Source of the DNA: Intrasporangium flavum
GTDB lineage: Bacteria > Actinomycetota > Actinomycetes > Actinomycetales > Dermatophilaceae
DNA length: 64,000 nt
Reading direction: 5' to 3'
NCBI RefSeq assembly: GCF_001956915.1
Contig: NZ_MLJO01000027.1
Location: 1-64,000 of the forward strand
The notes under the pieces were generated by a model that had not been told where the DNA came from, made no database searches, and worked only from the letters and a program-made list of their open reading frames with translations. Both the position numbers and the translations under genes were made by a program. Below are positions 9,138 to 39,951 of this stretch, piece after piece. The stretch's first letter is position 1. The number at the start of each line of letters is the position of its first letter.

Positions 9138-9276
9138 GGGACCACGCTAGACGCGTCGTGGCGGCTGGGCACCCCGGTTGCCGGGTTCGTTCCGGCCGGC
9201 GGCGGTCGGGCAGCGGACGCGGTCACGGAATGGTCACGGGTCTTGACCGATGCCCCCTTCCCCCGTCATCCTCTGG

Positions 9277-9324
9277 CGTGAGAGCGCTCTCACGGTCGAG
9301 CTTCACGCACGGAGAGCGCTCCCA
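9277..9324. promoter_or_regulatory. LacI/CebR-type operators upstream of the ceb-like operon
   Basis: CGTGAGAGCGCTCTCACG (9277-9294) is a perfect 18-bp palindrome. A second, imperfect copy, GGAGAGCGCTCCC, starts at 9311. Their AGCGCT cores are 34 bp apart. The core resembles the Streptomyces CebR box (TGGGAGCGCTCCCA, known). Both lie just before the solute-binding protein gene. TTGACC at 9243-9248 is a possible -35 element. Repression by the LacI protein encoded at the operon end is inferred. Confidence 0.85.
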
Positions 9325-9359
9325 CACCCCCACTGGGCAGAGACCGAAGGAGCTCTCCG

Positions 9360-10679
9360 ATGACAGCCCGCACCACCCGTACCGGCACCCGCCTGACGCG
9401 TCCCCGGAACGTCGCGCTCGCCACCCTCACCGTCGGACTGCTGGCGCTCTCGGCGTGCAGCTCGGGCAGCGCCGACAACGGTCCCTCGACCCAGGCCGGC
9501 GCCGCCGGCGGCAAGGTCACCCTCACCCTCGCGACCTTCAACCAGTTCGGCTACGAGGACCTCATCCCCGAGTTCGAGAAGACCCACCCGAACATCACCG
9601 TCACCCACAAGAAGGCCGCAACCTCCAACGAGGCCCGCGACACCTTCTTCACCCGCCTCTCGGCCGGCAGCGGCATGGCCGACGTCGAGGCCGTCGAGGT
9701 CGACTGGCTGCCCGAGATGCTCCAGTATTCCGACAAGTTCACCGACCTCAAGAGCGCGAGCACCGACGGTCGCTGGCTCGACTGGAAGGCCAAGGCGGCC
9801 ACCGACGCCGACGGCCACCTCATCGGCTACGGCACCGACTCCGGCCCCGAGGCCATCTGCTACCGCAGCGACCTCTTCAAGAAGGCCGGCCTGCCGAGCG
9901 ACCGCGCGTCCGTCGCCAAGCTCTTCGGGAACACCTGGGAGAGCTACTTCGCCGCCGGCAAGCAGTTCGCCGCCAAGTCCAAGGTGCCCTTCTTCGACAG
10001 CATCGGCGCCACCTACCAGGGCATGGTCAACCAGGTCCAGGCCGCCTACGAGAACCCGGCCGACGACAGCATCACCGCCACCGACAACGCCGACGTCAAG
10101 AGGCTCTACGACCAGGTCGTCCAGGCCGGCATCACCGACGGCCTCTCGGCCAAGCTCCAGCAGTGGGGCGACGACTGGACCGCGTCCTTCCAGAAGGACG
10201 GCTTCGCCACCATGCTCTGCCCCGGCTGGATGGTCGGCGTCATCGAAGGCAACGCCAAGGGCGTCAAGGGCTGGGACGTCGCCAACACCTTCCCCGGCGG
10301 CGGCGGCAACTGGGGCGGCAGCTACCTCGTCGTGCCCAAGCAGAGCGCCCACCCCAAGGAGGCCCAGGAGCTCGCCGACTGGCTGACCGCCCCGGAGCAG
10401 CAGGTCAAGGCCTTCAAGAAGGTCGGAGCGTTCCCGAGCCAGCAGGCCGCGCTCACCAACCCCGAGCTCCTCGCGTTCAAGGTCGCCTCGTTCAACAACG
10501 CCCCCACCGGGCAGATCTTCGCCGAGCGCGCCAAGGCCGTGACCGTCTCGCCGTACAAGGGCACGCACTACTTCGCCATCAACGACGCCATGCAGCAGGC
10601 CCTGACCCGCGTCGAGCAGGGCACCTCGCCGCAGGAGTCGTGGGACAAGTGGGTGGCCGACGTCAAGGCCCTCGGCTGA
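9360..10679 (+). CDS. cebE: Cellobiose-type ABC importer, lipoprotein solute-binding subunit (439 aa)
   Basis: The signal peptide ends in a lipobox, LLALSAC, so the mature protein is a lipid-anchored extracellular binding protein (family 1, CUT1). GAAGGAG precedes the ATG. It is the first gene of a five-gene run with two permeases, a GH1 beta-glucosidase and a LacI regulator, and CebR-like operators lie immediately upstream. This organisation matches the cebEFG–bglC system of streptomycetes. Cellobiose or short cello-oligosaccharides are the inferred ligands; other beta-glucosides are possible. The ATPase (MsiK type) is not in the window. Confidence 0.8.
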   Translation: MTARTTRTGTRLTRPRNVALATLTVGLLALSACSSGSADNGPSTQAGAAGGKVTLTLATFNQFGYEDLIPEFEKTHPNITVTHKKAATSNEARDTFFTRLSAGSGMADVEAVEVDWLPEMLQYSDKFTDLKSASTDGRWLDWKAKAATDADGHLIGYGTDSGPEAICYRSDLFKKAGLPSDRASVAKLFGNTWESYFAAGKQFAAKSKVPFFDSIGATYQGMVNQVQAAYENPADDSITATDNADVKRLYDQVVQAGITDGLSAKLQQWGDDWTASFQKDGFATMLCPGWMVGVIEGNAKGVKGWDVANTFPGGGGNWGGSYLVVPKQSAHPKEAQELADWLTAPEQQVKAFKKVGAFPSQQAALTNPELLAFKVASFNNAPTGQIFAERAKAVTVSPYKGTHYFAINDAMQQALTRVEQGTSPQESWDKWVADVKALG

Positions 10680-23395: not shown

Positions 23396-26300
23396 GTGAG
23401 TCGGATGGACGAACACGGCCAGGTTGCGACCATCGGCACGCAGGGGACGGGCGGCACGACGCCGACGCCCCTGCGGGCCCGGACCGCCGGCGCGCGCGCC
23501 CGGCACGAGCACACGGCCGGACGCCGACGCGTCCGGCGGCGTGCCCGGGGCGGGCCGGGCGGCCTGCGTGGTGGCCCGGCCCGACGCGTGGTGTCGGCCG
23601 TGGGTGCGATGGCACTCGCGGTCGGCACGCTCGTGTCCGTGCCCCTGCTCGCGGCGGTCCCCGCCCAGGCGGCCACGAGCGCCGTCCACGTGCAGCTGCA
23701 CGCCGCCCGGACCGAGGCGCACGCGAACCCGCCCGTCACCGAGGGCGACCCGGTCACCGACTTCCGCTACATGATCAACGTCGACAACTCCGGCAAGAGC
23801 GACCCGGCCGGCGGCCCGCAGCCGGGCTCCGGCTGCTCCGCCGAGGACCCCGGCTACCCGGCGAGCTGCACGTGGCCCTCGATCCTCGAGGACCCGGGGG
23901 CGGCCCCGATCTACCGCCAGGGCACGAGCGCCGACTTCGCGAACGGCGCGACGCTGACGCTGCCCGACGGCAACTACCTCGTCACGGTGCTCGCCGACGG
24001 CTACAAGATCGACGGCGCGCACTTCTCGGTGCCGAGCGCCGACGGCACCGTCGACGTCGGCGTGCAGCCGGACCCGCTGCCGGACGCCACGCTGCGCGCG
24101 TACGTCTTCCAGGACGAGGCGTCGACGAACGGCGCCATCGACAACGGCGAGGACGGCCTCGCCGGCTTCCAGGGCCACATCAACGACACCCTCGGCGAGG
24201 TCACGACCGACGTCTACGGCAACCCGCTGTGCACGACGTACGTCGGCGAGGACCCCGACACCCACATGATCCCGTGGACCGCCGCGTCACGCGACGCCGA
24301 CGGCCTGCCGGTCGTCGACACGGTCGGCGGCAAGTGCTTCAGCGACGCCACCGGCATGGTCGCCATCCCGCACCTCGGCACCAACCGGTACACGACGACG
24401 ATCACCCCGCCCGACGGCACCGACTGGATCCAGACGACGACCCTCGAGGGCAACCACGACTTCGACACGTGGCTCATGGAGGGCGCGACCGGCTACGACA
24501 CCGAGTTCACGGTGGCCGGCGAGCCCGTCCCGACGCCGCAGTTCGGCTTCGTGCACCCGCACAACAGCCTCGGCACCACGGCGTCCGGCTCGATCAGCGG
24601 CGTCGTCGTCGCGGCGAAGCAGTACTACCCGCCCGTCGGTGGCAGCTTCAACCTCTACAACGGGATGACCGGCAGCAAGCTCGACACGCCGATCGCCGAC
24701 CCGGTGCTCTCCCTCAACGACCTCGACAACGGCGACCAGGCCGTCTGGGTCGGGCGCGGCGCCGCGGACGGCAGCTTCACGATCCCGCACGTGCCCGATG
24801 GCACCTACCAGCTGACGTGGTGGGACGAGCCGCAGGACTACATCCTCATGCTCGTCAACGTCACCGTGTCCGGCGGCCGGGCCGTCGACATGAAGCAGCT
24901 GCCGATGAACGGCTGGTGGACCGAGGTCACCGGCCACGTCTTCCTCGACGACAACAAGAACGGCAAGCGCGACCCCGGCGAGCAGGGCGTGGCCCAGTTC
25001 CCGCTGACGCTGCGCAAGAAGGACAACTCGCTCATGGACCGCGGCTCGAACGCCGTGTCGACCGACAGCGCCGGCTACTACCGCTTCGAGAGCGGCTACC
25101 CGCTGGCCGAGTGGTTCGTCCTCGAGGCCTACTCCGACGCCTTCTACACGACCGGCGTCACCTACCAGGCCGACAACCAGCCCACCCCGACGACCGTGCT
25201 CGGCTCGGGTGTCGATGTCAGCCTGCTGCCGATCATCGGCCTGTCCGGCACCGTCGACTGGGGCGTGCAGAAGTACGACGCGGCCGGCACCAAGGGCGGC
25301 CCGCGCAACGGCGGCATCGTCGGGTCGGTCAGCTACGACACGACCCGCAACGAGCTCGACCCGCAGTACGCGGCCTCCGAGGACTGGCAGCCCGGCGTCC
25401 CGAACGTCCCGGTCAAGCTCTACGACACCGTGGACTGCCCGGCCGACGGCTCGCTGCCGTGCGACCCGAGCGACACCTACGCCCTCGCCCCCGACGGCTC
25501 CTACAAGCAGGGCAAGCTGCTCAACACCTACGTCTCCGAGTCGTGGGGCCGGCCCACCGGCTGCGTCGCCCGCGACGCCGACGGCAAGCCGTTCGCGCAC
25601 CCGGCCGACGAGGACGTCCTCGTGCCGGACCAGGCGACCGGCGGCGAGTGCCTCGCGGCCCTCGTCCAGGGCGTCCAGGTGGGCCCGTACGCCACCGACC
25701 AGGGCACGCCCGACGCGAACTTCGGCGCCGCGGTCGACGGCAACTACGGCTTCGGCGACGGCTGCTTCACCGGCACGCTCGACGCGTCCGACCCCGCCAA
25801 CCCGACGTGCACCGACGGGTCCGGCAACGACGCCTTCACGAGCCTGCCCGGCGGGCACAGCTACCTCGTGCACATCGACCTGCCCGACGACCAGAGCGGC
25901 AACCCGATGTACTCGGTGACCTCCGAGGAGGACATCAACATCGCCCGCGGCGACACGATCGTGCCGCAGGTCCCGCCGCCGGCGTGCGCCGGCGCCCTGC
26001 ACACCGTCGACGTCGCCGGTGCCGGCACCGACGACTACCCGGCCAAGGCCGGCGACGGCACCAACGGCCTGCCGACCGGCGTCACCGTCCCGGCGTCCTC
26101 GCCGGTGTCGAACGCGCCGTTCGTCGACATGGGCGGCTCGCCCTACGAGGGCGCGGTCAAGCCGCGCTGCGACACCAAGCTCGTCGACCTCAACAACGGC
26201 AAGTCGATCGTGCCGATGTTCAACGTCTTCACCGACGTGCCGCTCCCCTCGCGCATGCGCGGGCTCCTCGTCGACGACCTCAACTTCTCCGTCGACAAGC

Positions 26301-29300
26301 GGACGACCGGCTTCGGCGACAAGGCCGGCGTGGCCTACGCGCCGGTCGGCATCTACGACTTCACCAACCGGCTCGTCTACACGGCGCACTCCGACTTCAA
26401 CGGCATCTACGACGTGCTGATGCCCTCGACCGACCACATCTCCTGCCCGACGCCGTCCGGTGTCTGCACAGGCATGTACCGGTTCGTCGGCAACGACCCC
26501 GGCGTCCCGGGAGCGCTCAACCAGGACTACAACCCGCGCTTCCGCACCATCGCGACCGAGTTCGAGGCCATGCCCGGGGTGACCATCCCGACCGACCTCG
26601 CCCCGACGCAGGTGGGCGTCAGCGTCGGCACGCCGGGCACGAGCCCGACGACCGTGACCTGCCCGATCGACGCAGTGCAGCCGCAGCTGTTCTCGGTGTC
26701 CAAGCCGTTCGTGCGCAGCACGGACACGGGCACGGCCCGCAACGTCACGGTCAACGGCCTCGGCTTCGGGGCGACCCGGGGCACCGGGACCGTCACCCTC
26801 GACGGCGTCGCCCTGCCGACGAGCGCCTACCAGTCGTGGAACGACACGACGATCCAGCTGGCGATCCCGGCCGTGGGCACCAACCCGGCCACGAGCGTCG
26901 CGGCCGGCCCGCACAGCCTCGTCATCACCGCCTCGAACGGGATGAGGACGGTCAACGGGATCACCTTCCACGTGCTGGGCACGGGGTACAGCCCGAACGT
27001 CTACACCGTCGGCCCGGGTGCCCTCGCCTCGAACGCGCGCTACAACCCGGCGAGCACGGCGAGCCAGACCGGCACCGCCGGCGTCAGCCACGCCATCCAG
27101 AACGCGCTCGACGACGCCCGCACCAGCGCCGGTACCGACCTCGTGGTGGTGTACCCGAACACCGCTGTGCCCGTGACGAACCCGCGTGGCGCGTACTACG
27201 AGAACCTCGTCGTGTCGGCTCCGGTCAAGCTCCAGGGCATCGGTGCCGGCGGGTTCCAGGGATCCACGCCGACGAGCCCGCACATCCAGGGCACGATCAT
27301 CGACGGCAGCGCGTTCGGTGGCGACACCGACCTCGCCACCGACTGGTTCACCCGCGTCGCCGCCATGACGTGGGCCGGCAACCAGGCCGTCAACGACGGC
27401 GCCGTCGTCTACCTGCTCGCCCAGGCGAACACGTTCCCCGACAGCAGCTCGGCCTTCAAGCCGGCCGTCGACGGGTTCGACATCCGGGGCGGTGACCAGC
27501 AGGGCTTCCCGGGCAACCTCAACGACCTGACCGGGCAGCTGACCAACCTGCCGCCGAACATCGTGACGCAGGGCGGGGCGATCTTCGCCAACGCCTACGT
27601 GCGCCAGCTGCAGGTGACCAACAACGTCGTCGAGAACAACGGCGGCGGCTACGGCACCATCCGCATAGGCACCCCCGACCTGGCGGCGCCGGACACCAAC
27701 CAGCACAACGAGCACGTGCGGATCGCGAACAACCGCATCGTGCAGAACGCCGGCACCAACCTCGCCGGGGCCATCGGGCTCTTCGCCGGCTCGGACGGCT
27801 ACGAGGTGTCCGGCAACGACCTCTGCGGCAACTTCAGCCTCGAGTACGGAGCCGGGCTCAGCGTCTACGGCTACAGCCCGGGCGGTTCGGTGCACCACAA
27901 CCGGATCACGCTCAACAACTCCAACGACGAGGGTGCCGGCATCATGATCGCCGGTCAGCTGCCCGCCGACCCGACGACGCTCTCGCCGGGGTCCGGCGCG
28001 GTCGACATCCACGACAACCAGATCCAGGCCAACCTCGCCAACGACGACGGCGGCGGCATCCGGTTCCTCATGTCGGGCAACTTCCCGATGAACGTCTACA
28101 ACAACGTCATCGCGAACAACGTCTCGACCCACGAGGGCGGCGGCATCGCCATCGACGACGCGCCGAACGTGCGGATCTACGGCAACACGGTCATGGGCAA
28201 CATCACGACGGCCACCGCCGTGACGTCCAACGGGCTGCCGGCCCCGGCCGGGGTCTCGACGGCGACCAACAGCGACCAGCTGCAGGCGACGCTGCCCGCC
28301 GGCTCGCCCGTCTTCAGCCGGCCGCTGATGTTCGACAACATCCTCTGGGACAACCGTGCCGGCACCCGTGCGGGCACGACCGTCACGGGCATCGGCCTGG
28401 CCGGTGACTCCTCGCCCGTCGACGAGTGGGCGGTCGGCAACGCCGACGGCACCGGCCTGCTCGCGCCGACGAGCTCGGTGATCCAGCAGGACGCGTCGCA
28501 CCCGTACACGACGAGCGCGACGAACCGGATGACCGACCCGCAGGTCGTGCGCCCGTACGCCCTGTCGGTGTCGTTCGCGACGTGGCGCCAGAACCCGGCG
28601 TTCGTCGACGCGAACGTCGTCACGGTGGAGCAGCCGCCCGACCTCATGGGCAACTACCACCTGGCCTCGTGCGCGACCGGCTCGGCCTCCCCGGCCTGCA
28701 ACCTCGGAGCGGCCTCGGCCGGAGGCGTCTCGATGCCGACGACCGACATCGACGGCGACGGACGTCCGTCCAACGGTGGCTACGAGGCCGGCGCGGACGA
28801 GTCGTCGGGCGGGACCGTGACGCCGCCGCCGACGTCCCCGGCGTTCTACTTCTCGACGACCGGCAACGCCAACCCGCCGGGGGTCGCGGGGACCGCCGAC
28901 GACGCCGACGTCTACGCGTGGAACACGCCGTCGAACACCTTCAGCCGGAGCATCGACGTGACCGCGGCACCGTACGGCGTGCCGGCCGCGGCCAACCTCG
29001 ACGGCCTGTCGATGGTCGACGCGACGCACTTCTACGCCTCGTTCAGCAACGACACGACCCTCCCGGGACTCGGGGCGGTCCAGGACGAGGACGTCGTCTA
29101 CTGGAACGGCAGCGCCTGGTCGGTGTGGTTCGACGGCACGACCCGCGGCCTGACCTCGACGGCGCTCGACGTCGACTCCATCACCGTCCGCGGCGGCGTC
29201 CTCTACTTCGGCACCGCCGGGGCACAGCGTCCGCCGGGCGTCGGCGGCACGACCGACCAGAACGACCTCTACAGCTGGAACGGCACCGCGTTCGCACGGG

Positions 29301-29650
29301 TCTGGGACGCGTCGGTGCACGGCGTGCTGCCCCTGACCCACGTCGACGCGGCGACGTACGTGGACGCCACGCACGTGTACCTGTCGTTCGACGGCACGAA
29401 CAACCTCATCCTCACGGGCGGGCTCAGCTCGCTGACCGTCCAGGACGAGGACGTCGTGTACTGGCAGAGCACGAGCGCCACCTCCCTCGGCTCGTGGTCC
29501 GTCTTCTTCGACGGCACGGCCCGCGGGCTGACCGCCACCGACCACGACATCGACGCGTTCTCGCTGCCGACCGGGGCGACCGCGCCCGCGGCGGCCGCGG
29601 TCCGTGCCGGTGCCCGCGTGGCTCCCGGGATCGGGGGGCCGGTCCGATGA
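23396..29650 (+). CDS. Giant secreted multi-domain beta-helix protein, first gene of the copper-oxidase cluster (2,084 aa)
   Basis: An unusually long Arg-rich N-region (about 65 residues) precedes a Sec signal core ending in VPAQA. SdrD B-like beta-sandwich segments follow (about 230-290, DEASTNGAIDNGEDGLAGF; about 509-585, VFLDDNKNGKRDPGEQGVAQ). Then come a TIG/IPT-like domain (about 1095-1195) and a right-handed parallel beta-helix (about 1200-1600, repeated NNxIxxN-like turns). The C-terminus holds two copies of a ~115-residue repeat (about 1817-2070) with NPPGVAGTADDADVY and VQDEDVVYWNG. That repeat recurs at the end of the third cupredoxin protein. No LPXTG or membrane anchor is visible. 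GTG 23396 lies 6 bp after GGAGG; ATG 23405 is an alternative. Scaffold or adhesin role inferred. Confidence 0.85.
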   Translation: MSRMDEHGQVATIGTQGTGGTTPTPLRARTAGARARHEHTAGRRRVRRRARGGPGGLRGGPARRVVSAVGAMALAVGTLVSVPLLAAVPAQAATSAVHVQLHAARTEAHANPPVTEGDPVTDFRYMINVDNSGKSDPAGGPQPGSGCSAEDPGYPASCTWPSILEDPGAAPIYRQGTSADFANGATLTLPDGNYLVTVLADGYKIDGAHFSVPSADGTVDVGVQPDPLPDATLRAYVFQDEASTNGAIDNGEDGLAGFQGHINDTLGEVTTDVYGNPLCTTYVGEDPDTHMIPWTAASRDADGLPVVDTVGGKCFSDATGMVAIPHLGTNRYTTTITPPDGTDWIQTTTLEGNHDFDTWLMEGATGYDTEFTVAGEPVPTPQFGFVHPHNSLGTTASGSISGVVVAAKQYYPPVGGSFNLYNGMTGSKLDTPIADPVLSLNDLDNGDQAVWVGRGAADGSFTIPHVPDGTYQLTWWDEPQDYILMLVNVTVSGGRAVDMKQLPMNGWWTEVTGHVFLDDNKNGKRDPGEQGVAQFPLTLRKKDNSLMDRGSNAVSTDSAGYYRFESGYPLAEWFVLEAYSDAFYTTGVTYQADNQPTPTTVLGSGVDVSLLPIIGLSGTVDWGVQKYDAAGTKGGPRNGGIVGSVSYDTTRNELDPQYAASEDWQPGVPNVPVKLYDTVDCPADGSLPCDPSDTYALAPDGSYKQGKLLNTYVSESWGRPTGCVARDADGKPFAHPADEDVLVPDQATGGECLAALVQGVQVGPYATDQGTPDANFGAAVDGNYGFGDGCFTGTLDASDPANPTCTDGSGNDAFTSLPGGHSYLVHIDLPDDQSGNPMYSVTSEEDINIARGDTIVPQVPPPACAGALHTVDVAGAGTDDYPAKAGDGTNGLPTGVTVPASSPVSNAPFVDMGGSPYEGAVKPRCDTKLVDLNNGKSIVPMFNVFTDVPLPSRMRGLLVDDLNFSVDKRTTGFGDKAGVAYAPVGIYDFTNRLVYTAHSDFNGIYDVLMPSTDHISCPTPSGVCTGMYRFVGNDPGVPGALNQDYNPRFRTIATEFEAMPGVTIPTDLAPTQVGVSVGTPGTSPTTVTCPIDAVQPQLFSVSKPFVRSTDTGTARNVTVNGLGFGATRGTGTVTLDGVALPTSAYQSWNDTTIQLAIPAVGTNPATSVAAGPHSLVITASNGMRTVNGITFHVLGTGYSPNVYTVGPGALASNARYNPASTASQTGTAGVSHAIQNALDDARTSAGTDLVVVYPNTAVPVTNPRGAYYENLVVSAPVKLQGIGAGGFQGSTPTSPHIQGTIIDGSAFGGDTDLATDWFTRVAAMTWAGNQAVNDGAVVYLLAQANTFPDSSSAFKPAVDGFDIRGGDQQGFPGNLNDLTGQLTNLPPNIVTQGGAIFANAYVRQLQVTNNVVENNGGGYGTIRIGTPDLAAPDTNQHNEHVRIANNRIVQNAGTNLAGAIGLFAGSDGYEVSGNDLCGNFSLEYGAGLSVYGYSPGGSVHHNRITLNNSNDEGAGIMIAGQLPADPTTLSPGSGAVDIHDNQIQANLANDDGGGIRFLMSGNFPMNVYNNVIANNVSTHEGGGIAIDDAPNVRIYGNTVMGNITTATAVTSNGLPAPAGVSTATNSDQLQATLPAGSPVFSRPLMFDNILWDNRAGTRAGTTVTGIGLAGDSSPVDEWAVGNADGTGLLAPTSSVIQQDASHPYTTSATNRMTDPQVVRPYALSVSFATWRQNPAFVDANVVTVEQPPDLMGNYHLASCATGSASPACNLGAASAGGVSMPTTDIDGDGRPSNGGYEAGADESSGGTVTPPPTSPAFYFSTTGNANPPGVAGTADDADVYAWNTPSNTFSRSIDVTAAPYGVPAAANLDGLSMVDATHFYASFSNDTTLPGLGAVQDEDVVYWNGSAWSVWFDGTTRGLTSTALDVDSITVRGGVLYFGTAGAQRPPGVGGTTDQNDLYSWNGTAFARVWDASVHGVLPLTHVDAATYVDATHVYLSFDGTNNLILTGGLSSLTVQDEDVVYWQSTSATSLGSWSVFFDGTARGLTATDHDIDAFSLPTGATAPAAAAVRAGARVAPGIGGPVR

Positions 29651-29712: not shown

Positions 29713-31071
29713 ATGGACACGCTCCACCCGACCGAGCCGGGCGGCGTCAGCCGGCGCCGGTTCCTCGGCCTCGCCGGCGGCGCGGCCCTCGTGGCCGGCG
29801 TCGGCACCTGGAGCGGGCGCGTGCTCGCGCCCGAGCAGGTGGCCTCCGCGGCGGACGCGCCGGCGAACCTCTACCTCGCCGGCACCGACGGCTGGATCCA
29901 CCTGCCGCCGACGCCGGCGATCCCGCCGTTCCACCCGGACAACCTCGCGCCTCCGGGCCTGACGACCTACGTCTTCGGGTTCCGCAACGTCACCGGGATG
30001 ACGACGACCCAGCGGCTCGCGCAGAAGAACAAGGCGCAGCACTCGGCGCCGCTCTTCTGGGTCGACCAGTACGACCCCAACGCGCACAACGAGTTCCGCG
30101 TGCAGCTGACGAACCTGGGCCTGGCGCTGCGGCCCGACCTCTTCGACGCGCACACCCTGCACTGGCACGGCTTCCGCAACGTCATCCCGTTCTTCGACGG
30201 GGAGCCGACGGGGTCGGTGTCGGTGCCGGCCGGGCGGGAGTTCACCTACGTCTACCGGCCGCGGGACCCGGGCACCTACATGTTCCACTGCCACGTCGAG
30301 GACGTCGAGCACGTGCACATGGGCATGACGGGCCTCGTGTTCGTCCGGCCCCTGCAGGACGGCCAGAGCAAGACCCACGACGGCCGCACCTACACGAAGT
30401 TCCTCTACAACGACGGCGACGGCTCGACCGGCCACGACCGCGAGTTCGCGATGTTCCTGTCGGAGGTGTGGGCCGAGGCCCACTGGGCCGACGCGCACAT
30501 CCAGCTGCCGGAGTGGAGCGACTACCGGGCCGACTTCGCCCTCCTCAACGGACGCGTCTACCCCGACACCATCGAGCCGAACGGGCCGTCGGTCAACGCG
30601 TTCCACACCGAGTCCGGCGTGACGTTCGACGCGACCGGCGACCTCATCGCCCCGGCCGGGCGACCGGACCTGCAGTACCAGCCGAACTCCTCACTCGTGC
30701 GGTGCAACTCGGGTGAGCGGGTGGCGCTGAGGTTCGCCAACCTCGGGTTCCGCGAGGCGGCCATGACGACGAGCGGCATCCGGATGCGCGTCGTCGGCCG
30801 GGACGCCACCCCGATGCGCGGGCGCGACGGCACCGACACCTCGTACGAGACCGAGACGCTCAACATCGGCCCGGGCGAGAGCTACGACGTCGTGTTCACG
30901 GCCCCGGCCAAGACGGGGTCGGGCGCCTACGACACCTACTACCTCTACAACCGCGCGTTCAACCGCTCGAACAACCTCGCCCCGGGCGGGTTCGGCGGCC
31001 AGGCGACCGAGATCCGGGTGTACGCGAGCGGCGTCGGGCCGCAGGCCTACCCGAACGACTGGGGGAACTGA
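29713..31071 (+). CDS. Two-domain multicopper oxidase subunit carrying type 1 copper and half of the trinuclear ligands (MCO-A, 452 aa)
   Basis: A twin-arginine signal (SRRRFLGLAGG) suggests export in folded form. Domain 1 has HTLHWHG (H147, H150, H152) and HCHVEDVEHVHMGM (H192, C193, H194, H200, M205). Together these supply His/Cys/His/Met for type 1 copper and two HxH pairs for the trinuclear site. Domain 2 is still cupredoxin-like but has no histidine pairs: where HxxHxH is expected it reads MTTSGIRMRVVG. By itself the protein therefore cannot complete a trinuclear cluster. It starts 62 bp after the giant gene, and the next gene begins 3 bp after its stop. Substrate unknown; phenol, Mn(II), Fe(II) or Cu(I) are possible. 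Confidence 0.85.
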   Translation: MDTLHPTEPGGVSRRRFLGLAGGAALVAGVGTWSGRVLAPEQVASAADAPANLYLAGTDGWIHLPPTPAIPPFHPDNLAPPGLTTYVFGFRNVTGMTTTQRLAQKNKAQHSAPLFWVDQYDPNAHNEFRVQLTNLGLALRPDLFDAHTLHWHGFRNVIPFFDGEPTGSVSVPAGREFTYVYRPRDPGTYMFHCHVEDVEHVHMGMTGLVFVRPLQDGQSKTHDGRTYTKFLYNDGDGSTGHDREFAMFLSEVWAEAHWADAHIQLPEWSDYRADFALLNGRVYPDTIEPNGPSVNAFHTESGVTFDATGDLIAPAGRPDLQYQPNSSLVRCNSGERVALRFANLGFREAAMTTSGIRMRVVGRDATPMRGRDGTDTSYETETLNIGPGESYDVVFTAPAKTGSGAYDTYYLYNRAFNRSNNLAPGGFGGQATEIRVYASGVGPQAYPNDWGN

Positions 31072-31074
31072 GCC

Positions 31075-32397
31075 ATGAGCCTCACACCACGTCTCCGGCG
31101 TCGCGGGTCATCCCTGCGACGCGTGCTGGCCGCCGCCACGGTCACCGCGCTCGGCGCGGTCGGTGCGGCGGTCGTCCAGGGCGCACCGGCCACGGCCGAC
31201 GCGCCGCCGCGCAACGGGATCGTCTGCACCTCAGGCGGATCCGCGCCCGGCAACCCGGTCTTCGACCTGACGACGCGCACCGGCTACATCGACCTGCCGG
31301 ACGGCAACACCGCGTACATGTGGGGCTACTCGAGCGGGTTCGACCCGTTCCAGCACCCCGGACCGGTGCTCTGCGTCCACGAGGGCGACACCGTCACCGT
31401 CATCCTCCACAACACCCTCGAGGACCCGACCTCGATCGTCTTCCCGGGCATGGACGACGTCCGCGCCGACGGGGTGGCCTCGCAGCCGCAGGTCGACGGC
31501 ACCGGGCTGGTGACGAGCCTCGCGCCCGGCGCCGCCGCCCTGACGGGCACGACGACGTACACGTTCACCGCGTCCCGCCCGGGCACCTACCTCTACGAGT
31601 CGGGCACCAACCCCGAGAAGCAGGTGCGGATGGGCCTGTTCGGCGCGCTGGTCGTGCGGCCGACGCTCGGCGACGACTACGCCTACGACTCCGCCGACAG
31701 CCGGTTCAACCCGACCGAGGAGTTCATGGTCCTCCTCTCGGAGATCGACCCCTACCAGCACCAGGCGGCCGAGGCCCACAAGAGCTTCAACCTCAACAAC
31801 TACAAGGCTCGGTACTGGCTCATCAACGGCCGCGGCTACCCGGACAGCATCGCCGACAACGGCGCGTCGTGGCTGCCCAACCAGCCGTACGGGTCGCTCG
31901 CCACGGTCAAGCCCTACGACCCGGTGACCCACCCGCTCAACGGCCTGGCCCGCTACCTCAGCGTCGGCAGCGAGGACTACCCGTTCCACCCGCACGGCAA
32001 CAACGGGCTCGTCGTCGGCCGCGACGGCCACCCGCTCAAGAGCCCCGCCGGCGGCGACCTGTCGATGGAGAAGTTCGCCATCAACATCGGCCCCGGGCAG
32101 ACGTGGGACGTGCTCTTCAAGTGGTACGACGCCGAGGGCTACAGCCCGAGCAACCCGGTGACCGTGACCGTCCCGAGCCTGGCCAACCAGGTGGTCGGCA
32201 CGTTCTACAGCGGCAGCCCGTACCTCGGCTCGACGCAGGCCCTGCCGCCGGGGGTGCAGACCCTCAACCAGTGCGGCGAGTACTACATCATCAGCCACAA
32301 CCACGCGCTGTACCAGATCACCTCGTGGGGCGTGACGATGACCGGTCCCATCACGTACATGCGGATCGAACCGCCGGCCCCGAACACGTGCGGTTGA
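31075..32397 (+). CDS. Two-domain multicopper oxidase subunit carrying the other half of the trinuclear ligands (MCO-B, 440 aa)
   Basis: A Sec-type signal peptide ends near VQGAPATADA. Domain 1 has lost copper ligands: the HxHG site reads SIVFPG and the HCH…HxxM site reads YESGTNPEKQVRMGL. Domain 2 keeps two HxH pairs, PFHPHG (H305, H307) and SHNHALY (H408, H410), but the type 1 positions are changed (Y302 where the first His of HxxHxH belongs, N409 where Cys belongs). The retained ligands are precisely those missing from the preceding protein. I infer that the two form one oxidase with the cluster at their interface. Not a decayed gene: intact, coupled and signal-bearing. Confidence 0.85.
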   Translation: MSLTPRLRRRGSSLRRVLAAATVTALGAVGAAVVQGAPATADAPPRNGIVCTSGGSAPGNPVFDLTTRTGYIDLPDGNTAYMWGYSSGFDPFQHPGPVLCVHEGDTVTVILHNTLEDPTSIVFPGMDDVRADGVASQPQVDGTGLVTSLAPGAAALTGTTTYTFTASRPGTYLYESGTNPEKQVRMGLFGALVVRPTLGDDYAYDSADSRFNPTEEFMVLLSEIDPYQHQAAEAHKSFNLNNYKARYWLINGRGYPDSIADNGASWLPNQPYGSLATVKPYDPVTHPLNGLARYLSVGSEDYPFHPHGNNGLVVGRDGHPLKSPAGGDLSMEKFAINIGPGQTWDVLFKWYDAEGYSPSNPVTVTVPSLANQVVGTFYSGSPYLGSTQALPPGVQTLNQCGEYYIISHNHALYQITSWGVTMTGPITYMRIEPPAPNTCG

Positions 32398-32413: not shown

Positions 32414-35368
32414 ATGACGACACGCACCCGCGCACCGCGCGTCCTGGCCCGGTCGCTCGCGACCGGAGGCCTGCTCACGGCGGCCTGGCTGCTGCTGGGC
32501 CCGGCCGGCTCGGCGCACGCCGCCGACCGCTCGATCGACCTGTGGGCGGTCAGCGGCTCGACGAGCCTCCCCGGGCTCGCCTCCCCGCTGCCCGTCTGGG
32601 GCTACACGTCCGACGGCTCGGCGCCGACCGCCCCCGGCGGTCCGGTGCTCACCGTCGACGAGGGCGACCAGGTGACGATCACCCTGCACAACTCGCTGGC
32701 CGAGAACACGGCGCTGCACGTCGGCGGCCAGTCGCTCGTGCCCGACACGACCGGGGCCGCGGCGAGCGGCACCCGCACGTACACCTTCACCGCGAGCCGT
32801 CCCGGCACCTACCTCTACGAGGCGGGCCTCACCGCGAACAGCGAGCACCAGGTGGCGATGGGCCTCTACGGCGCCCTCGTCGTGCGGGCGACCGACCCGG
32901 CGCAGGCCTACGACGACGCCGGCACGGCGTTCGACGTGTCGGCCCCGGTGGTCCTCGGCGAGATCGACCCGGCACTCAACGCGAGCGCCAACCCGGCCGG
33001 CTTCGACCTGCGCACCTTCAAGCCGCGCTACTTCACCGTCAACGGCAAGGTGCACCCGCAGAACGCACCGATCACCGCGGCGTCGGGGCAGAAGCTCCTG
33101 CTGCGTTACGTCAACGCCGGGCTCTCCTACCGCTCGATGGGCGTCCTCGGCGCCTCGCAGCGGCTCGTCGGCGTCGACGGCAGCCCGCTGCGCAACGGCA
33201 CCACCGACATCTCGCGCAGCTACGTCGCCGAGACGTTCGGACCCGGCCAGACCGCGGACGCCCTCGTCACCCTGCCGGCGACCGCGACCGACCGTCGCCT
33301 CGCCGTCTACGACGCGAGCCTGACGCTGCACAACTCGAACACGGCCGGCGCGGGCGGCATGCTCGCCGTCGTCGCCGTGGCCGGTTCGGGCGTCGCCTCC
33401 CCCGACACGGCGGGTCCGGCCACGACCGGCGTCGCCTGGGCGTCAGGCACGCTGACCGCCACGGTCAGCGACGTCGCGACGGGCAACAGCGCCGTCACCG
33501 CGGCCGAGTACCGGCTCGACTCGGTGGCCGCCCCGCCGACCGCGATGAGCGGGTCCTTCGGCGCGCCGACGGCCACCGTCACGGCACCCGTCGCCATCGC
33601 GTCCGGCCAACACGTCGTCTACGTGCGCGGCCGCGACGCCGGCGGCAGCTGGGGCCCGTGGAGCTCGGTCCTCGTCACCGGCAACGACGTCGTCGGGCCC
33701 ACGACGAGCGGCGTCGTGCTCGCCCCCGACCGGACCAACGGCTCGGTGGCCGTGGCCGTCAGCGCCACCGGCAACGACTCCGCCTCCGGCGGGCACGCCA
33801 TCGCGGCGGCCGAGCTGTCGGTCGACGGCGGCTCGCCCATCGCCATGACCGTCGCGACCTCCGGCCCGGTGGCGAGCGTCACCGGCTCGATCCCGGCCGC
33901 CACGGTGGGCGCCCTCGCCGAGGGCAGCCACACGGTGTCGGTCCGCACGCAGGACTCCGTCGGCAACTGGGGCGACCCGTCCACGGCGACGTTCGTCGTC
34001 GACAAGACCGGTCCCGCGGCATCCGCCGTCAGCGTCGTGCCCGACCCGAACAACGGCCTCCAGCCGGTCAACGGTGCGACGCCGTCGGTGCGCCTGTCGG
34101 CCACCCTGACCGACAACCCGTCGGCCGTGGGCGCCGCCCAGAGCACGGTCGCGGCCGCCGAGGCGTTCGTGGACACGCTCGGGTCGCCGGGCTCCGGCAT
34201 CCCGCTCGAGGCCTCGGACGGGGCCTGGTCCGGACCCGTCGAGAACGCCTACCTCGACATCCCGCTCGCCACGGTGCGGCAGATGACCGAGGGCTCGCAC
34301 ACGCTGTGGGTCCGCGGACGCGACGCCGCCGGCAACTGGGGTGCGGCGGGCCAGGTCGTGCTGCACGTCGACAAGACGGCCCCGGCGATCACGGCCCTGA
34401 CGGCGACGCCGAACGCGGCCACGAGCACCATCACGGTGTCCGGCACCGCGACCGACGCGCTGTCGGCCCTGACGAACGTCGAGTGGTTCCGTGGCGCCGA
34501 CCCCGGCGCCGGCAACGGCACCGCGCTCACCGTCACGGCGGGCGGCGCCATCAGCGGCACCATCGACACGCACGCCTTCGCCGACGCCTCGACGACCTTG
34601 TCCTTCCGGGTCCGCGACGCGGCCGGCAACTGGAGCGCCGTCGTGAACCGAACGCTCACCGTCACCCACCAGCTGCGCTACTCCACCGCGGGCAACACCA
34701 ACCCGCCCGGGGTGGCCGGCACGGCGGACGACGCGGACATCTACCTGTTCAACGGCACCGCCCACTCGCGGCTGCACGACCTGAGCACGATGGGTGTCCC
34801 GACGAGCGCCAACGTCGACGGGTACAGCCGCGAGGACGACACGCACTTCTACGTCTCGTTCGCCGGCACGACGACCGTCACCGGCCTCGGCACCGTCCAG
34901 GACGAGGACGTGCTCTACCGCAACGGCACCACGTGGGAGCTGTACTACGACGGCTCCACGCACGGCGTCACCGCCAACGTCGACGCGATCAGCGTCGTCG
35001 GCACCGGCACCGGGCGCGTCCTCTACCTCTCCCTCGCGACGAACACGACGCCGCCGGGAGTCACGGGGGCGGCCGGTGACGACGCGGACGTCTACCGGTG
35101 GACGAGCGGCAGCACGTACACGCGGGTCCTCGACGCGACGACGGCCGGCATCCCGGCCACCGCCAACGTCGACGGCCTCACCTGGGTCGGCACGACGGAC
35201 TACTACCTGTCCTTCAGCGCCGACGCCACCGTCACCGGCCTCGGCACCGCGGCCGACGAGGACGTCATCCACCGCAGCGGCACCGCGTGGAGCACGTACT
35301 TCGACGGCTCGCTGCACGGCCTGTCCACGAGCAGCAACCTGGACGTCGACGCGTTCGACATCCGCTGA
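32414..35368 (+). CDS. Copper-site-less cupredoxin paralogue with Ig-like repeats and shared C-terminal module (MCO-C, 984 aa)
   Basis: AGAGGTGG supports the ATG at 32414. A Sec signal ends in GSAHA. Residues about 40-330 align with the two-domain fold of the previous protein (same RTYTFTASRPGTYLYEAG segment) but lack almost all ligands: ALHVGGQ, then SEHQVAMGL, and domain 2 reads GLSYRSMGVLG. Residues about 340-750 hold four Ig/Fn3-like repeats marked by SHTVSVRTQDSVGNWG-type strands. The end (about 752-984) has two ~115-residue repeats shared with the giant protein (NPPGVAGTADDADIY, VQDEDVLY). It looks like a structural third subunit and tether rather than an enzyme. Confidence 0.82.
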   Translation: MTTRTRAPRVLARSLATGGLLTAAWLLLGPAGSAHAADRSIDLWAVSGSTSLPGLASPLPVWGYTSDGSAPTAPGGPVLTVDEGDQVTITLHNSLAENTALHVGGQSLVPDTTGAAASGTRTYTFTASRPGTYLYEAGLTANSEHQVAMGLYGALVVRATDPAQAYDDAGTAFDVSAPVVLGEIDPALNASANPAGFDLRTFKPRYFTVNGKVHPQNAPITAASGQKLLLRYVNAGLSYRSMGVLGASQRLVGVDGSPLRNGTTDISRSYVAETFGPGQTADALVTLPATATDRRLAVYDASLTLHNSNTAGAGGMLAVVAVAGSGVASPDTAGPATTGVAWASGTLTATVSDVATGNSAVTAAEYRLDSVAAPPTAMSGSFGAPTATVTAPVAIASGQHVVYVRGRDAGGSWGPWSSVLVTGNDVVGPTTSGVVLAPDRTNGSVAVAVSATGNDSASGGHAIAAAELSVDGGSPIAMTVATSGPVASVTGSIPAATVGALAEGSHTVSVRTQDSVGNWGDPSTATFVVDKTGPAASAVSVVPDPNNGLQPVNGATPSVRLSATLTDNPSAVGAAQSTVAAAEAFVDTLGSPGSGIPLEASDGAWSGPVENAYLDIPLATVRQMTEGSHTLWVRGRDAAGNWGAAGQVVLHVDKTAPAITALTATPNAATSTITVSGTATDALSALTNVEWFRGADPGAGNGTALTVTAGGAISGTIDTHAFADASTTLSFRVRDAAGNWSAVVNRTLTVTHQLRYSTAGNTNPPGVAGTADDADIYLFNGTAHSRLHDLSTMGVPTSANVDGYSREDDTHFYVSFAGTTTVTGLGTVQDEDVLYRNGTTWELYYDGSTHGVTANVDAISVVGTGTGRVLYLSLATNTTPPGVTGAAGDDADVYRWTSGSTYTRVLDATTAGIPATANVDGLTWVGTTDYYLSFSADATVTGLGTAADEDVIHRSGTAWSTYFDGSLHGLSTSSNLDVDAFDIR

Positions 35369-35423: not shown

Positions 35424-35948
35424 ATGACCGCCCCCACCCTCACCGCACCGGACCCGCGCGACTCCGCCGACCCCGGTCGGGCCCGCCCTCCCCGACGGGC
35501 CCGGGCGGTCATCGTCCTCGTTGTCGTGGCGCTGCTCGCGATCGGCATCGGCGTGGCCACCCGGACCGCCGTCAACGCCGCCAACGACGTGCGCTCCGGC
35601 ACCCGGGCCGTCAGCGCCCAGGAGTTCGCGGCGGCCACGGGGGTCCAGCTCTCGCTCCTCGGGGTCACGGCGCAGGGCGGCATGATCGAGTTCCGCTACC
35701 AGGTCGTCGACCCCGACAAGGCGAGCCTGCTGCTGCACCAGGACGACCGGCGCCCGATCCTCGTCGCCGAGGACACCGGCGCGACGCTCGTCATGCTGTC
35801 GCGGCCGCACAACCACAAGGCCGACCTCAAGCTCGGCGGCACGTACTTCTTCATGATGGCCAACACGCAGAACGCGGTGCGTGACGGTACGAAGGTCACC
35901 GTCATCGTCGGCGACGTCCGCCTCGAGCACGTCGTGGCCCGCGCATGA
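35424..35948 (+). CDS. Small membrane-anchored extracytoplasmic protein in the copper cluster (174 aa)
   Basis: A Pro/Arg-rich cytoplasmic tail precedes one hydrophobic helix (VIVLVVVALLAIGIGVAT), and a ~110-residue extracytoplasmic domain follows. It contains LSRPHNHKADLKLGGTYFFMM, with an HNH and methionines that could handle copper, and ends in a beta-rich KVTVIVGDVRLEHVV. I do not recognise the family. It is placed directly before CopC–CopD with an ATGA overlap, so a metallochaperone or assembly factor for the oxidase is a reasonable but untested idea. Confidence 0.7.
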   Translation: MTAPTLTAPDPRDSADPGRARPPRRARAVIVLVVVALLAIGIGVATRTAVNAANDVRSGTRAVSAQEFAAATGVQLSLLGVTAQGGMIEFRYQVVDPDKASLLLHQDDRRPILVAEDTGATLVMLSRPHNHKADLKLGGTYFFMMANTQNAVRDGTKVTVIVGDVRLEHVVARA

Positions 35949-37915
35949 CCGCCGCGGCCCGCCGTGTGCCCGCTGCCCGGCGGGCCGCGCGCCCGACCCT
36001 CCCGCTGCTCGTCGCCGCCCTGCTGGCGTTCGCCGCGCTGCTCGCCGGCGCGGGCGCGGCCTCGGCCCACAGCGCCCTCGAGCGCTCCGACCCCCCGAAC
36101 GGCGGCATGGTCGCCACCGGCCGGACCAGCCTGACGCTGTGGTTCGGCGAGCCCGTGTCCGCGACCGGCAGCACCTTCACCGTGCGGCCGAGCGACGCGT
36201 CGGCCCCGCCGGTCCCGACGACCGCCACGCTCGACGCGTCGGGCGACGTCGTCCACCTGCGCACGGCGCCGCTCGAGCGGGGCACGTACACGATCGCCTG
36301 GTCGGTCGTGGCGACCGATGGCCACCCGACGCGCGGCACCGTCGTCTTCGGCGCCGGCTTCCGTCCCGACGGCGTGCCGGCGGGGGGCTCCGGGGCCGCG
36401 CCCGACGCGGGCCAGGTCCTCGCGCGGCTCGGCGACCTCGGCGGCACCCTGCTCGCGCTCGGCGCCCTGACCGTCGCCGGCCGGGTCCTCTCGGCGCTCG
36501 GGGCCACCGGGGCGCGGCTGCGTCGACGGGTGCTGCGCCTCGGGGCGATCGGGGCGGGGATGTCCCTCGTGGCCGCGGCGGCCGTGCCGGTGCTCACCGC
36601 GCAGGCCGGCCTCGACGCGCCGGCGTCGAGCGGGCCGGGGGCTCGCCTCTGGGCCGCGGTCGGCGAGGTCCTCCTCAGCAGCACGTGGGGCGTCCTGTGG
36701 CTGCTGCGGCTCCTCGCCCTCGCGGTCGGGCTCGTCGGCCTCGTCGTCGCGACCCGCCGGTCGGGGGACGGCGGGTCCGAGGCGGGCAGCCTTGCGCCGC
36801 AAGGCTGGACGCGCCCCGCCCGGCTGGCCCTTGGAGCACTCGTCGTCGCCGCGTCGCTCGACGGCTTCGCCGGTCACGCGTCGACGCTCCCGGCCCGGTC
36901 GGTGCCGGCCGCGGTCGCCGCGACACTGCACGTGCTCGCGGCGGGGGTGTGGGCCGGCGGTCTGCTCGTCCTCGTCGTCACCGTCGTGCCGCTGATGCGC
37001 CTGGACGCCGCGACCCGGCGCTCGGTGTCGCCGCGGGCCTGGCGGGCCTTCAGCCCGGTCGCCGCGGCATCGACCGTCGTGCTCGTCGGGACCGGCCTCT
37101 ACGAGGCGGGGCGGCACGTCGGGTCGCTCGCGACGGCAACCAGCAGCGTCTACGGCACCGGGGTGCTCGCCAAGCTGCTCCTCGTCGCCGTGGCCCTCGT
37201 CCTCGCGGGCTACAACACGGTGCTCGTCAACCCGGCGGTGTCCGCCCGGGTGGGCGACGTGCTGCGCCTCGGGCCCGGCTGGCGCCCGCGTCGGCACCGT
37301 CTCGCCACCACGGTGACCGTCGAGGCCTGCGTGCTCGCCGGGGCGGTCGCGGTGGCCGCCCTCATGACGTCGGTGCCGACGGCGCGCGAGGTGCAGGCCG
37401 CCTCGGCGGTCACCGCGCCGCACAGTGCCACCGTCGACGGCCTCTTCGTCACGTTCGAGGCCGTGCCGACCGGCGAGCAGCTGCGCCTCGTCGTGCGCAC
37501 CGAGGCCGTCGTCCGGCCGCTGCCCACGCCACCCTCGGGTGTCGAGGTGGGGCTCGCCCCCGCCGGCAGCATCACCCTGCGGGCCGTCGAGCCCGGACGC
37601 TGGGAGGCCTCCGCGCCCGTGCCGGAGAGCGCCGACTGGACCGCCGCCGTCGTCGTGCACCGGTCCGGGCGCCCCGACTCCGTCGTCCTCGTCCCGGGGT
37701 CCACGGCCACGGCCGGGGCCGCCACCCCGCTCGAGCTGGTCACGAGCGGCCTTGCCGTCGCGATGCTCCTCGGCCTCGCGACCGTCGTCGCCGTGCGGCG
37801 CCGACACCGCGCCACCGACTCCCCCTCCCACTGGTCACCCCCCGCGGGAGTCGGTGGCGCGGAACCCGGCCCGGGCACCGGGGACGAGCACCTCGAGAAG
37901 GCGATGACCCCATGA
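35945..37915 (+). CDS. copCD: CopC–CopD fusion, copper transport protein (656 aa)
   Basis: After the signal peptide the mature protein begins AHSALERSDPPNGG, whose N-terminal His is the CopC Cu(II) ligand. WSVVATDGHPTRG gives the other CopC ligands. About eight membrane helices of CopD follow, with conserved HASTLPA and HVLAAGVWAGG. The last ~170 residues are an extra extracytoplasmic beta-rich domain and a final helix. CopC–CopD fusions are common in actinobacteria and import copper or deliver it to exported cuproproteins (known). Overlaps its neighbours by 4 bases on both sides, tying copper handling to the oxidase genes. Confidence 0.92.
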   Translation: MTAAARRVPAARRAARPTLPLLVAALLAFAALLAGAGAASAHSALERSDPPNGGMVATGRTSLTLWFGEPVSATGSTFTVRPSDASAPPVPTTATLDASGDVVHLRTAPLERGTYTIAWSVVATDGHPTRGTVVFGAGFRPDGVPAGGSGAAPDAGQVLARLGDLGGTLLALGALTVAGRVLSALGATGARLRRRVLRLGAIGAGMSLVAAAAVPVLTAQAGLDAPASSGPGARLWAAVGEVLLSSTWGVLWLLRLLALAVGLVGLVVATRRSGDGGSEAGSLAPQGWTRPARLALGALVVAASLDGFAGHASTLPARSVPAAVAATLHVLAAGVWAGGLLVLVVTVVPLMRLDAATRRSVSPRAWRAFSPVAAASTVVLVGTGLYEAGRHVGSLATATSSVYGTGVLAKLLLVAVALVLAGYNTVLVNPAVSARVGDVLRLGPGWRPRRHRLATTVTVEACVLAGAVAVAALMTSVPTAREVQAASAVTAPHSATVDGLFVTFEAVPTGEQLRLVVRTEAVVRPLPTPPSGVEVGLAPAGSITLRAVEPGRWEASAPVPESADWTAAVVVHRSGRPDSVVLVPGSTATAGAATPLELVTSGLAVAMLLGLATVVAVRRRHRATDSPSHWSPPAGVGGAEPGPGTGDEHLEKAMTP

Positions 37916-39951
37916 CCTCCACCCACCGAACCCAGCGCACCCAGCGCACCCAGCGCACCCGCCGGTCCGCCGCCCTCGCCGCGCTCGGGGCCGTCACCCT
38001 CGGCGGCGCGCTCCTCGTGGCCCCGACGACCGCGGGAGCCGCGAGTCCCGTTGGCTCCCAGGGCGGCTCCCGGGTCGGTTCCCAGAGCGGATCCCAAAGC
38101 GTCACGGCATCGGGGCACGTCCGCGTCCTCGTCACGCTGCGCGCCCGCACCGACCTCTCGACGCTGCCCGCTCCCGGCCGCGCCGGACGCCTCGCCCTGG
38201 TCCTACGGCGACTGCAGGCCGACGCGGCGACGTACCAGGCCCCGCTGCTCACCCGGCTGCGCCAGCTCGCCGCGACCGGTGACGTCGCGGACGTGACGCC
38301 GCTCTGGGTCACCGACGCCGTCGCCGTCACGGCGTCACCGGGTGCGCTGCGCGAGCTCGCCGCACGGCCGGACGTCGCCTCCGTGACCCCGGACGCCGTC
38401 ACCGTCACTCCCGTCGCGGCGCCGGCGGAGCCGAACCTCACCGCCGTCGGGGCACCGACGCTGTGGGGCGCCGGCCAAACCGGCCAGGGCGTCGTCGTCG
38501 CGACCCTCGACAGCGGCGTCGACACGAGCAACCCCGACCTCGCGGCCCGGTGGCGCGGCGGCACGAACAGCTGGTTCGACCCGTACGGCCAGCACTCGAC
38601 GCCCGCCGACCTCAGCGGGCACGGCACCGCGACGACCGGCCTCGTCGTCGGCGGCGACGGCGCCGGCACGTCGTACGGCACGGCCCCCGGGGCGTCGTGG
38701 ATCGCGGCGCGGGTCTTCGACGACCGCGGTGCCGCGAGCGCCACCGCGATCCACCAGGCCTTCCAGTGGGTCCTCGACCCGGACCACGACCCGTCGACGG
38801 CCGACGCGCCGCGCGTCGTCAACGCCTCGTGGGTCCTCGGCGCCGGGCCGGGGTGCGACCTGTCGTTGCAGCCGGACGTCCGCGCCCTGCGCGCCGCCGG
38901 GATCGTGCCGGTCTTCGCGGCGGGCAACTTCGGCCCGTCCGCGTCGACGAGCGCCAGCCCCGCCAACTACCCCGAGTCGCTGTCGGTCGGCGCGGTGTCG
39001 ACCACCGACGCCATCTGGTCGGGCTCGAGCTCGGGCCCGTCGACGTGCGGCGGCCGCACCCGCGTGTTCCCCGACGTCGTCGCCCCGGGCGTCTCGGTGC
39101 TCGTCGCCGACCGCTACGACTCCTACACGTACGCGTCGGGCACGTCGGTCGCCGCGCCGCACGTGACGGGCGCGCTGGCCCTGCTGCTCGGCGCGCACCC
39201 GGGCCTGCCCGGCTCGACGCTCGAGCAGGGCCTCCTCGCGACCGCGCACGACCTCGGCACCGCGGGAGCCGACGACCGCTACGGCGCCGGGCGCGTCGAC
39301 GTACCCGCGGCCGACGCGTGGGCCGCCGCCGCTCCGGCACCGACGCCGGACCTCGCCCTGGCGCTCAGCCCCGCCTCGACCACGACGCGAGCCGGCGGCG
39401 GCGTGGCCTTCAGCGTGACGGCGACGCCCACGGGCGGGTTCGCGGCGGCGACGTCGCTGTCGGTCGCCGGCCTGCCCGGCGGCGCGACCGGCACCTTCTC
39501 CCCTGCCGTGCTCGGCCCGGGAGCCTGGGGCTCGACGCTGTCGGTCGCCACGGGCACCGGAACCGTGCCGGGCACCTACCCGCTCACCGTCACGGCCTCC
39601 GGCGGCGGGCTGACGCGCACCGCCACCGCGACCCTCGTCGTGACCGCGGTGCCCGACTTCACGCTGACGGCCGCGCCCACCTCGCGGACCGTCAAGCGTG
39701 GCCAGACGGCGAGCTACCCCCTCAGCGTCGGCTCGGTCGGCGGGTTCACCGGCGGCGTCACCCTGTCGCGGTCGCTGCTGCCGGCGGGCGCGACGTCCGC
39801 GTGGACCGTCAACCCGGTCACGGCGCCGGGCACCTCGCGCCTCGACGTCAGGCCGTCGACGACGACGCGGCGCGGCACGTACACGGTCACCGTGACCGGC
39901 ACCGGCGGTGGCGCCAGCCACAGCGTCGTGCTGACGCTCGTCGTGCAGTAG
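37912..39951 (+). CDS. Secreted subtilisin-like serine protease, S8 family (679 aa)
   Basis: The signal peptide follows a THRTQRTQRTQRT tandem repeat at the N-terminus. An I9-like propeptide spans about 65-165. The catalytic triad is D200 (ATLDSGVD), H237 (SGHGTA) and S412 (GTSVAAPH), with the oxyanion Asn in AAGNFGP (about N339). Two C-terminal Ig-like domains (about 480-679) follow. There is no C-terminal membrane helix, so it is not a mycosin. Last gene of the run, coupled to CopCD by ATGA. It may process the giant or cupredoxin proteins, or be a general exoprotease. Confidence 0.9.
   Translation: MTSTHRTQRTQRTQRTRRSAALAALGAVTLGGALLVAPTTAGAASPVGSQGGSRVGSQSGSQSVTASGHVRVLVTLRARTDLSTLPAPGRAGRLALVLRRLQADAATYQAPLLTRLRQLAATGDVADVTPLWVTDAVAVTASPGALRELAARPDVASVTPDAVTVTPVAAPAEPNLTAVGAPTLWGAGQTGQGVVVATLDSGVDTSNPDLAARWRGGTNSWFDPYGQHSTPADLSGHGTATTGLVVGGDGAGTSYGTAPGASWIAARVFDDRGAASATAIHQAFQWVLDPDHDPSTADAPRVVNASWVLGAGPGCDLSLQPDVRALRAAGIVPVFAAGNFGPSASTSASPANYPESLSVGAVSTTDAIWSGSSSGPSTCGGRTRVFPDVVAPGVSVLVADRYDSYTYASGTSVAAPHVTGALALLLGAHPGLPGSTLEQGLLATAHDLGTAGADDRYGAGRVDVPAADAWAAAAPAPTPDLALALSPASTTTRAGGGVAFSVTATPTGGFAAATSLSVAGLPGGATGTFSPAVLGPGAWGSTLSVATGTGTVPGTYPLTVTASGGGLTRTATATLVVTAVPDFTLTAAPTSRTVKRGQTASYPLSVGSVGGFTGGVTLSRSLLPAGATSAWTVNPVTAPGTSRLDVRPSTTTRRGTYTVTVTGTGGGASHSVVLTLVVQ

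Follow-up and report, generated by a model that had tools for sequence, protein, structure and literature searches.

We found that two adjacent genes of Intrasporangium flavum, here called A and B, carry one multicopper oxidase ligand set in complementary halves, a reading that the comparison of homologous sequences confirmed. The conserved split halves, the co-occurrence of the two genes, their order A-B-C with a third paralogue, C, and a predicted structure of A+B+C together lead us to infer an A:B:C heterotrimer. This assembly probably evolved from a type C homotrimer and would have a single active site between A-domain 1 and B-domain 2. With more reserve, although still leaning in its favour, we propose that the heterotrimer is obligate and widespread, that the gene of a homotrimer was duplicated and half-sites were then lost in a complementary manner, that such loss happened independently at least twice, and that C is catalytically dead.

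The genes described here lie in a stretch of 64,000 nucleotides, the window. Gene A (29713-31071, +) encodes a two-domain cupredoxin protein of 452 aa with a Tat-type signal, and its TGA stop codon is separated by three bases from the ATG of gene B (31075-32397, +), which encodes a two-domain cupredoxin protein of 440 aa. Domain 1 of A has a type 1 copper site and one half of a trinuclear cluster (TNC), and its domain 2 is without a ligand set; domain 1 of B is free of ligands, and the remaining half of the TNC lies in its domain 2, which lacks a type 1 site. In C (32414-35368, +; 984 aa), residues ~40-330 are another two-domain cupredoxin unit that is paralogous to A and B and lacks a copper site; according to Pfam, an Ig-like part (Big_13) comes next, and then tail repeats. 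Upstream of A lies U (~23396-29650, +; start codon uncertain), a secreted or surface protein of 2084 aa with SdrD_B, TIG-like, and beta-helix domains (Pfam) and with tail repeats that it has in common with C. At least 77 loci, and the relatives too, have a homologue of U upstream of A. The common C-terminal repeat, located at residues ~1813-2058 of U and ~757-987 of C, has ~120 residues ('NPPGVAGTADDADVY...') and no Pfam match.

Downstream of C, gene D (35424-35948, +) encodes 174 aa with one apparent membrane segment, for which Pfam gives weak aspartyl-protease-like matches alone; a small gene occupies the place of D in 45 other loci, the likeness being one of place. It is followed by a CopC-CopD fusion gene, presumably for copper handling (35945-37915, +), and a family of like size and place was found in 24 loci. 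A gene downstream of the copper genes (37900-39951 of the window) encodes, by its sequence, a subtilisin-like serine protease. Genes for a response regulator and a histidine kinase are located 7-8 kb upstream of A in the loci L044, L045, and L083 and in other Chloroflexi loci.

We assigned each histidine to a type 1 site or to the TNC by comparison with the established arrangement of multicopper oxidase motifs. In A-domain 1, motif 1, HTLHWHG (residues 147-153; 30151-30171, +), provides H147, H150, and H152, and motif 2, HCHVEDVEHVHMGM (residues 192-205; 30286-30327, +), provides H192, C193, H194, H200, and M205 and includes the conserved acid E196. The type 1 site is complete with H147, C193, H200, and M205, and the four TNC histidines are H150, H152, H192, and H194. 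The corresponding motifs of B-domain 1, SIVFPG (residues 120-125) and YESGTNPEKQVRMGL (residues 174-188), lack ligands. B-domain 2 has H305 and H307 (codons at 31987-31995) in motif 3, YPFHPHG (residues 302-308; 31978-31998, +), where Tyr302 occupies the position of the type 1 histidine, and H408 and H410 (codons at 32296-32304) in motif 4, SHNHALY (residues 407-413; 32293-32313, +), where Asn409 occupies the position of the type 1 cysteine. Both cupredoxin domains of C lack a copper site. The general multicopper oxidase set of one type 1 site and eight TNC histidines is complete in A and B jointly only.

A scan of ~85,000 species, each represented by one genome, with a profile of A yielded 344 relatives. 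The best 80 of these 344 were combined with the window and with the loci of related genomes, which gave alignments of 89 A, 87 B, and 81 C sequences. H147, H150, H152, C193, H194, H200, and M205 of A were present in 89/89 sequences and H192 in 88/89; two acidic residues beside the site, D162 and E196, were likewise found in 89/89. All four histidines of B-domain 2 were fully conserved (H305 and H307 in 87/87, H408 and H410 in 86/86). None of the 86-89 sequences examined per protein had a ligand set at the equivalent positions of A-domain 2 or B-domain 1, and none of the 81 C sequences had a copper site at the equivalent positions. Lone relic histidines occur: residue 349 of A is histidine in 25/89 sequences, and C-domain 2 has one at the old type 1 position in 69/81. 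Mean identity was 58% for A, 55% for B, and 46% for C, which evolves fastest, and the pairwise distances of A and B were correlated (0.92). The invariance of the A and B ligands across 86-89 sequences means that their pattern goes beyond chance. The carriers comprise Actinobacteria, many Chloroflexi, Methylobacter and other Methylococcaceae, one Oxalobacteraceae, and one Deltaproteobacteria genome; part of these genomes are metagenome bins. Humibacillus xanthopallidus DSM 21776 and Methylobacter tundripaludum SV96 are examples of carriers in culture.

These alignments agree with most of the original prediction, which had been made from the letters of the window. It had located the ligands of A in domain 1 (HTLHWHG and HCHVEDVEHVHMGM) with none in domain 2, and had described B as having lost those of domain 1 and kept PFHPHG and SHNHALY in domain 2; both sets of motifs are in the translations, and the ligands within them are present in 88-89 of 89 A sequences and in all 86-87 B sequences. 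The claim that the two sets are complementary, with one type 1 site and eight TNC histidines in total, held in every locus with both genes. The exchange of the type 1 histidine and cysteine of B for tyrosine and asparagine is correct for the window, but these two residues are not fixed in the family: position 302 is Y in 62 sequences, F in 11, H in 4, and other residues in the rest, and position 409 is N in 57 and S in 24, with no Cys among the residues counted. The prediction had missed C, the third paralogue, as well as U, which is conserved upstream of A.

That A and B always occur together had been set beforehand as a check, and lone homologues of either in many genomes, with oxidase activity, had been named as counter-evidence. 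Within the phylum of the host, the same 4 of 396 genomes had A and B and the rest had neither. Among 350 Chloroflexota genomes, both genes were present in the same 8, and a ninth, G859, had a weak B-like match alone. We rejected G859 as a genome with B alone, since its match belongs to an independently split pair described below. Overall, the two genes co-occurred in 12/12 genomes among the 746 searched, as predicted. B always adjoined A in loci found with the A query, save at two contig ends (L059 and L094), and a search of six whole carrier genomes with a B profile gave as further matches the neighbouring A and C genes only. The order A-B-C on a single strand was kept in nearly all loci, with C behind B in ~80. 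Apart from contig ends, L081 is the one exception for C: no C-like cupredoxin was present in the 3 kb past B. The gene next after B in this locus (8300-10300, +) encodes a repeat protein. Two A-B(-C) sets per genome were seen in Oscillochloris sp. ZM17-4 (L085 and L090, on one contig), G784 (contig C98), and G339; in the first two, the sets are near each other on one contig.

Because the two halves occur together almost without exception, the enzyme looks as if it works only as a mixed assembly. A Tat-type motif was found at the N-terminus of 85/89 A, 9/87 B, and 2/81 C sequences; its presence in A and rarity in B and C suggest that the proteins are probably exported by separate routes and meet outside the cytoplasm. 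Covariation between the proteins, analysed in 79 loci, gave no signal, and an intra-chain control was equally without signal.

A, B, and C share one reading frame in some loci, and we folded the read-through fusion of one of these, L045 from Chloroflexi, as a proxy for the complex. AlphaFold predicted the A+B+C fusion with a pLDDT of 87 and a pTM of 0.89, and only two linkers were below 50. The three-domain laccases 6vow (Z 28.5, 3.3 Å, 381/409 residues) and 6w2k (Z 27.4, 3.2 Å, 384 residues) fitted this model from residue 3/4, in A-domain 1, to residue 822, in B-domain 2. The TNC of laccases sits between domains 1 and 3, and the fit would thus place A-domain 1 and B-domain 2 in the relation of laccase domains 1 and 3. 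Ceruloplasmin superimposed in sequence order did not fit (TM 0.21, rmsd 33 Å). This misfit argues against a ring in the order A-B-C and leaves the order with B-domain 2 beside A-domain 1; it would follow from a ring in the order A, C, B.

A model of A and B from the window without C was predicted with a pTM of 0.86 and matched successive units of factor VIII, ceruloplasmin, and MnxG (4bdv_A, TM 0.62, 8.3 Å; consecutive units of ceruloplasmin, TM 0.47), and it fitted laccase 6vow poorly (17 Å). The pair therefore appears to use a contact of A-domain 2 with B-domain 1 instead, and the laccase-like relation of A-domain 1 to B-domain 2 is seen only in the model that includes C. The best fold matches of both models include 2zwn and 3g5w. 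Structure prediction, which the original prediction had proposed as a check, thus agreed with it for A+B+C but not for A+B. We gave the three-part model more weight, since a closed ring restricts the order of the units and since the result opposes the order that the linkers would favour; this is a judgement. The claim that A and B are obligate partners forming one site is supported by their co-occurrence, the split ligands, and the A+B+C model once C is added; we amend its pair-only form, C being most likely the third subunit.

A tree built from the two-domain cores resolved A, B, and C as one clade each, all fully supported, and we conclude from these sequences that they are three diverged copies of one ancestral gene. 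The closest solved relatives of A by sequence are the type C two-domain oxidases 3g5w (E 1.4e-24) and 2zwn (6.6e-22), whose motifs, matched to A, place the type 1 copper in domain 1; this location is the mark of a type C two-domain oxidase as defined in PMC13151041. Two-domain oxidases are trimers in which the residues of the TNC come from two protomers (PMC13151041).

The B-like match of G859 is one member of the adjacent gene pair X1/X2 in Ktedonobacteria (L109:3762-6041, -), and the pair is also present in a second Ktedonobacteria genome, G866 (L124:3408-5720, -). X2 kept the ligands of domain 1 (HTIHLHG and HCHQSTPEHIQMGM) and lost the HxxHxH motif of domain 2, and X1 kept domain 2 (HMMHTHGHH and FHDH) and lost the ligands of domain 1. 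The loss in X2 is less complete, as its motif 4 still reads HEH. No third paralogue was seen at either locus. A single gene that retains all four motifs is found in three related genomes (L125, L126, and L127), and the tree placed X1 and X2, with full support, together with such intact genes and outside the A, B, and C clades. Hence, complementary loss appears to have happened at least twice.

Type C oxidases, such as the metagenome laccase 2zwn and the blue copper oxidase 3g5w of Nitrosomonas europaea, resemble A in having two cupredoxin domains per chain, as seen here by Pfam and in the fold matches, the motifs HTIHWHG and HCH...EH...GM, and type 1 copper in domain 1; in our family, only A has type 1 ligands there, and a type 1 site is absent from B and C. 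In a type C oxidase, one gene provides both TNC halves and the homotrimer has three sites, whereas here the halves are on A and B and C has none, and no locus with A and B had both halves on one product. Type B laccases such as SLAC and CjMCO likewise form the TNC between adjacent subunits of a trimer (PMC13151041), but their trimers consist of identical subunits and bind type 1 copper in domain 2. Six-domain oxidases such as ceruloplasmin and MnxG of the Mnx complex (9bxa) also combine six cupredoxin domains with one TNC and have lost the sites at the other interfaces. They are one chain, whereas A, B, and C are three genes with their own stop codons and signal sequences. Bacterial six-domain oxidases hold type 1 copper in domain 2 and form the TNC between domains 2 and 3 (PMC3600357); here, type 1 copper would sit in the N-terminal half of a two-domain unit, and there are three chains. 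We found no split or heteromeric multicopper oxidase like A/B in the literature, where coverage of subscription journals was thin, nor such a split among the solved structures searched. The heterodimeric fungal laccase POXA3 has all its known copper ligands in the large subunit, and its small subunit is not known to be a cupredoxin half-site. This Pleurotus enzyme acts with a second small protein (PMC3129051).

The stoichiometry of the assembly could differ from A:B:C. A and B might share the site in a trimer of the type A2B or AB2, with C as a separate anchor or adhesin that contains a relic cupredoxin. This arrangement would suit the Ktedonobacteria pair, which shows complementary losses with no third paralogue at the locus, as well as the lack of a C-like cupredoxin within 3 kb of B in L081 and the fast evolution of C (46% mean identity compared with 55-58% for B and A). 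We consider it unlikely, as C lies behind B in ~80 loci, A+B+C was predicted as one confident assembly, and the laccase-like relation of A-domain 1 to B-domain 2 was obtained only with C in the model.

Even less probable is that no TNC forms at all and that A is a type 1 copper electron-transfer protein with B as a structural or copper-binding partner. A alone bears only 4/8 TNC histidines, and the A+B model, with no contact between A-domain 1 and B-domain 2, could be read in this way. However, in 86-89 loci the TNC histidines, four in A and four in B, are no more variable than the type 1 ligands, and D162 and E196 beside them are equally conserved, which is hard to explain without a TNC. Each protein taken singly resembles a degenerate oxidase, and the locus could in principle be a decaying laccase locus in which all copies are losing function; decay, however, would leave no exactly complementary invariant sets, and the ligands, the gene order, and the partnership have been kept across phyla at 46-58% mean identity. 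Decay is thus contradicted, and we give it practically no weight. The A:B:C heterotrimer with one site is the reading we prefer.

For this heterotrimer, we envisage as ancestor a type C homotrimer with a TNC where domain 1 of each subunit meets domain 2 of its neighbour. Judging from their signal sequences, A would be exported by the Tat system and B and C by Sec, and, once outside the cytoplasm, the three would form a six-domain cupredoxin ring that keeps only one of its three potential interface sites. A-domain 1 would give the type 1 copper and four TNC histidines, and B-domain 2 would give H305, H307, H408, and H410. A reductant would pass electrons to the type 1 copper, and Cys193 with the histidines on either side of it would relay them to the TNC, which would reduce O2 to water. 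D162 and E196 of A are presumably comparable to D94 and E487 of Fet3p, acids needed for O2 chemistry. C would close the ring without copper and bear the Ig-like tail; this tail and U, probably a surface partner, may anchor the enzyme at the surface, and CopC/CopD would handle copper. The acidic residues and the nearby copper genes led us to a metal ion as substrate, which is only a guess. A role connected with manganese, considered because one carrier bin is named MnB_9, had no support in the literature searched.

Multicopper oxidases are usually annotated from complete ligand sets within a protein, and by this practice A, B, and C look broken singly and are sensible jointly. They would represent a clear natural case of a homomer that became an obligate heteromer via complementary loss. 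As relatives of the two Ktedonobacteria with the independent pair keep an unsplit gene, the steps of such a split can be rebuilt and tested. In Chloroflexi, Actinobacteria, and methanotrophs, A/B/C may be an oxidase that has so far been overlooked.
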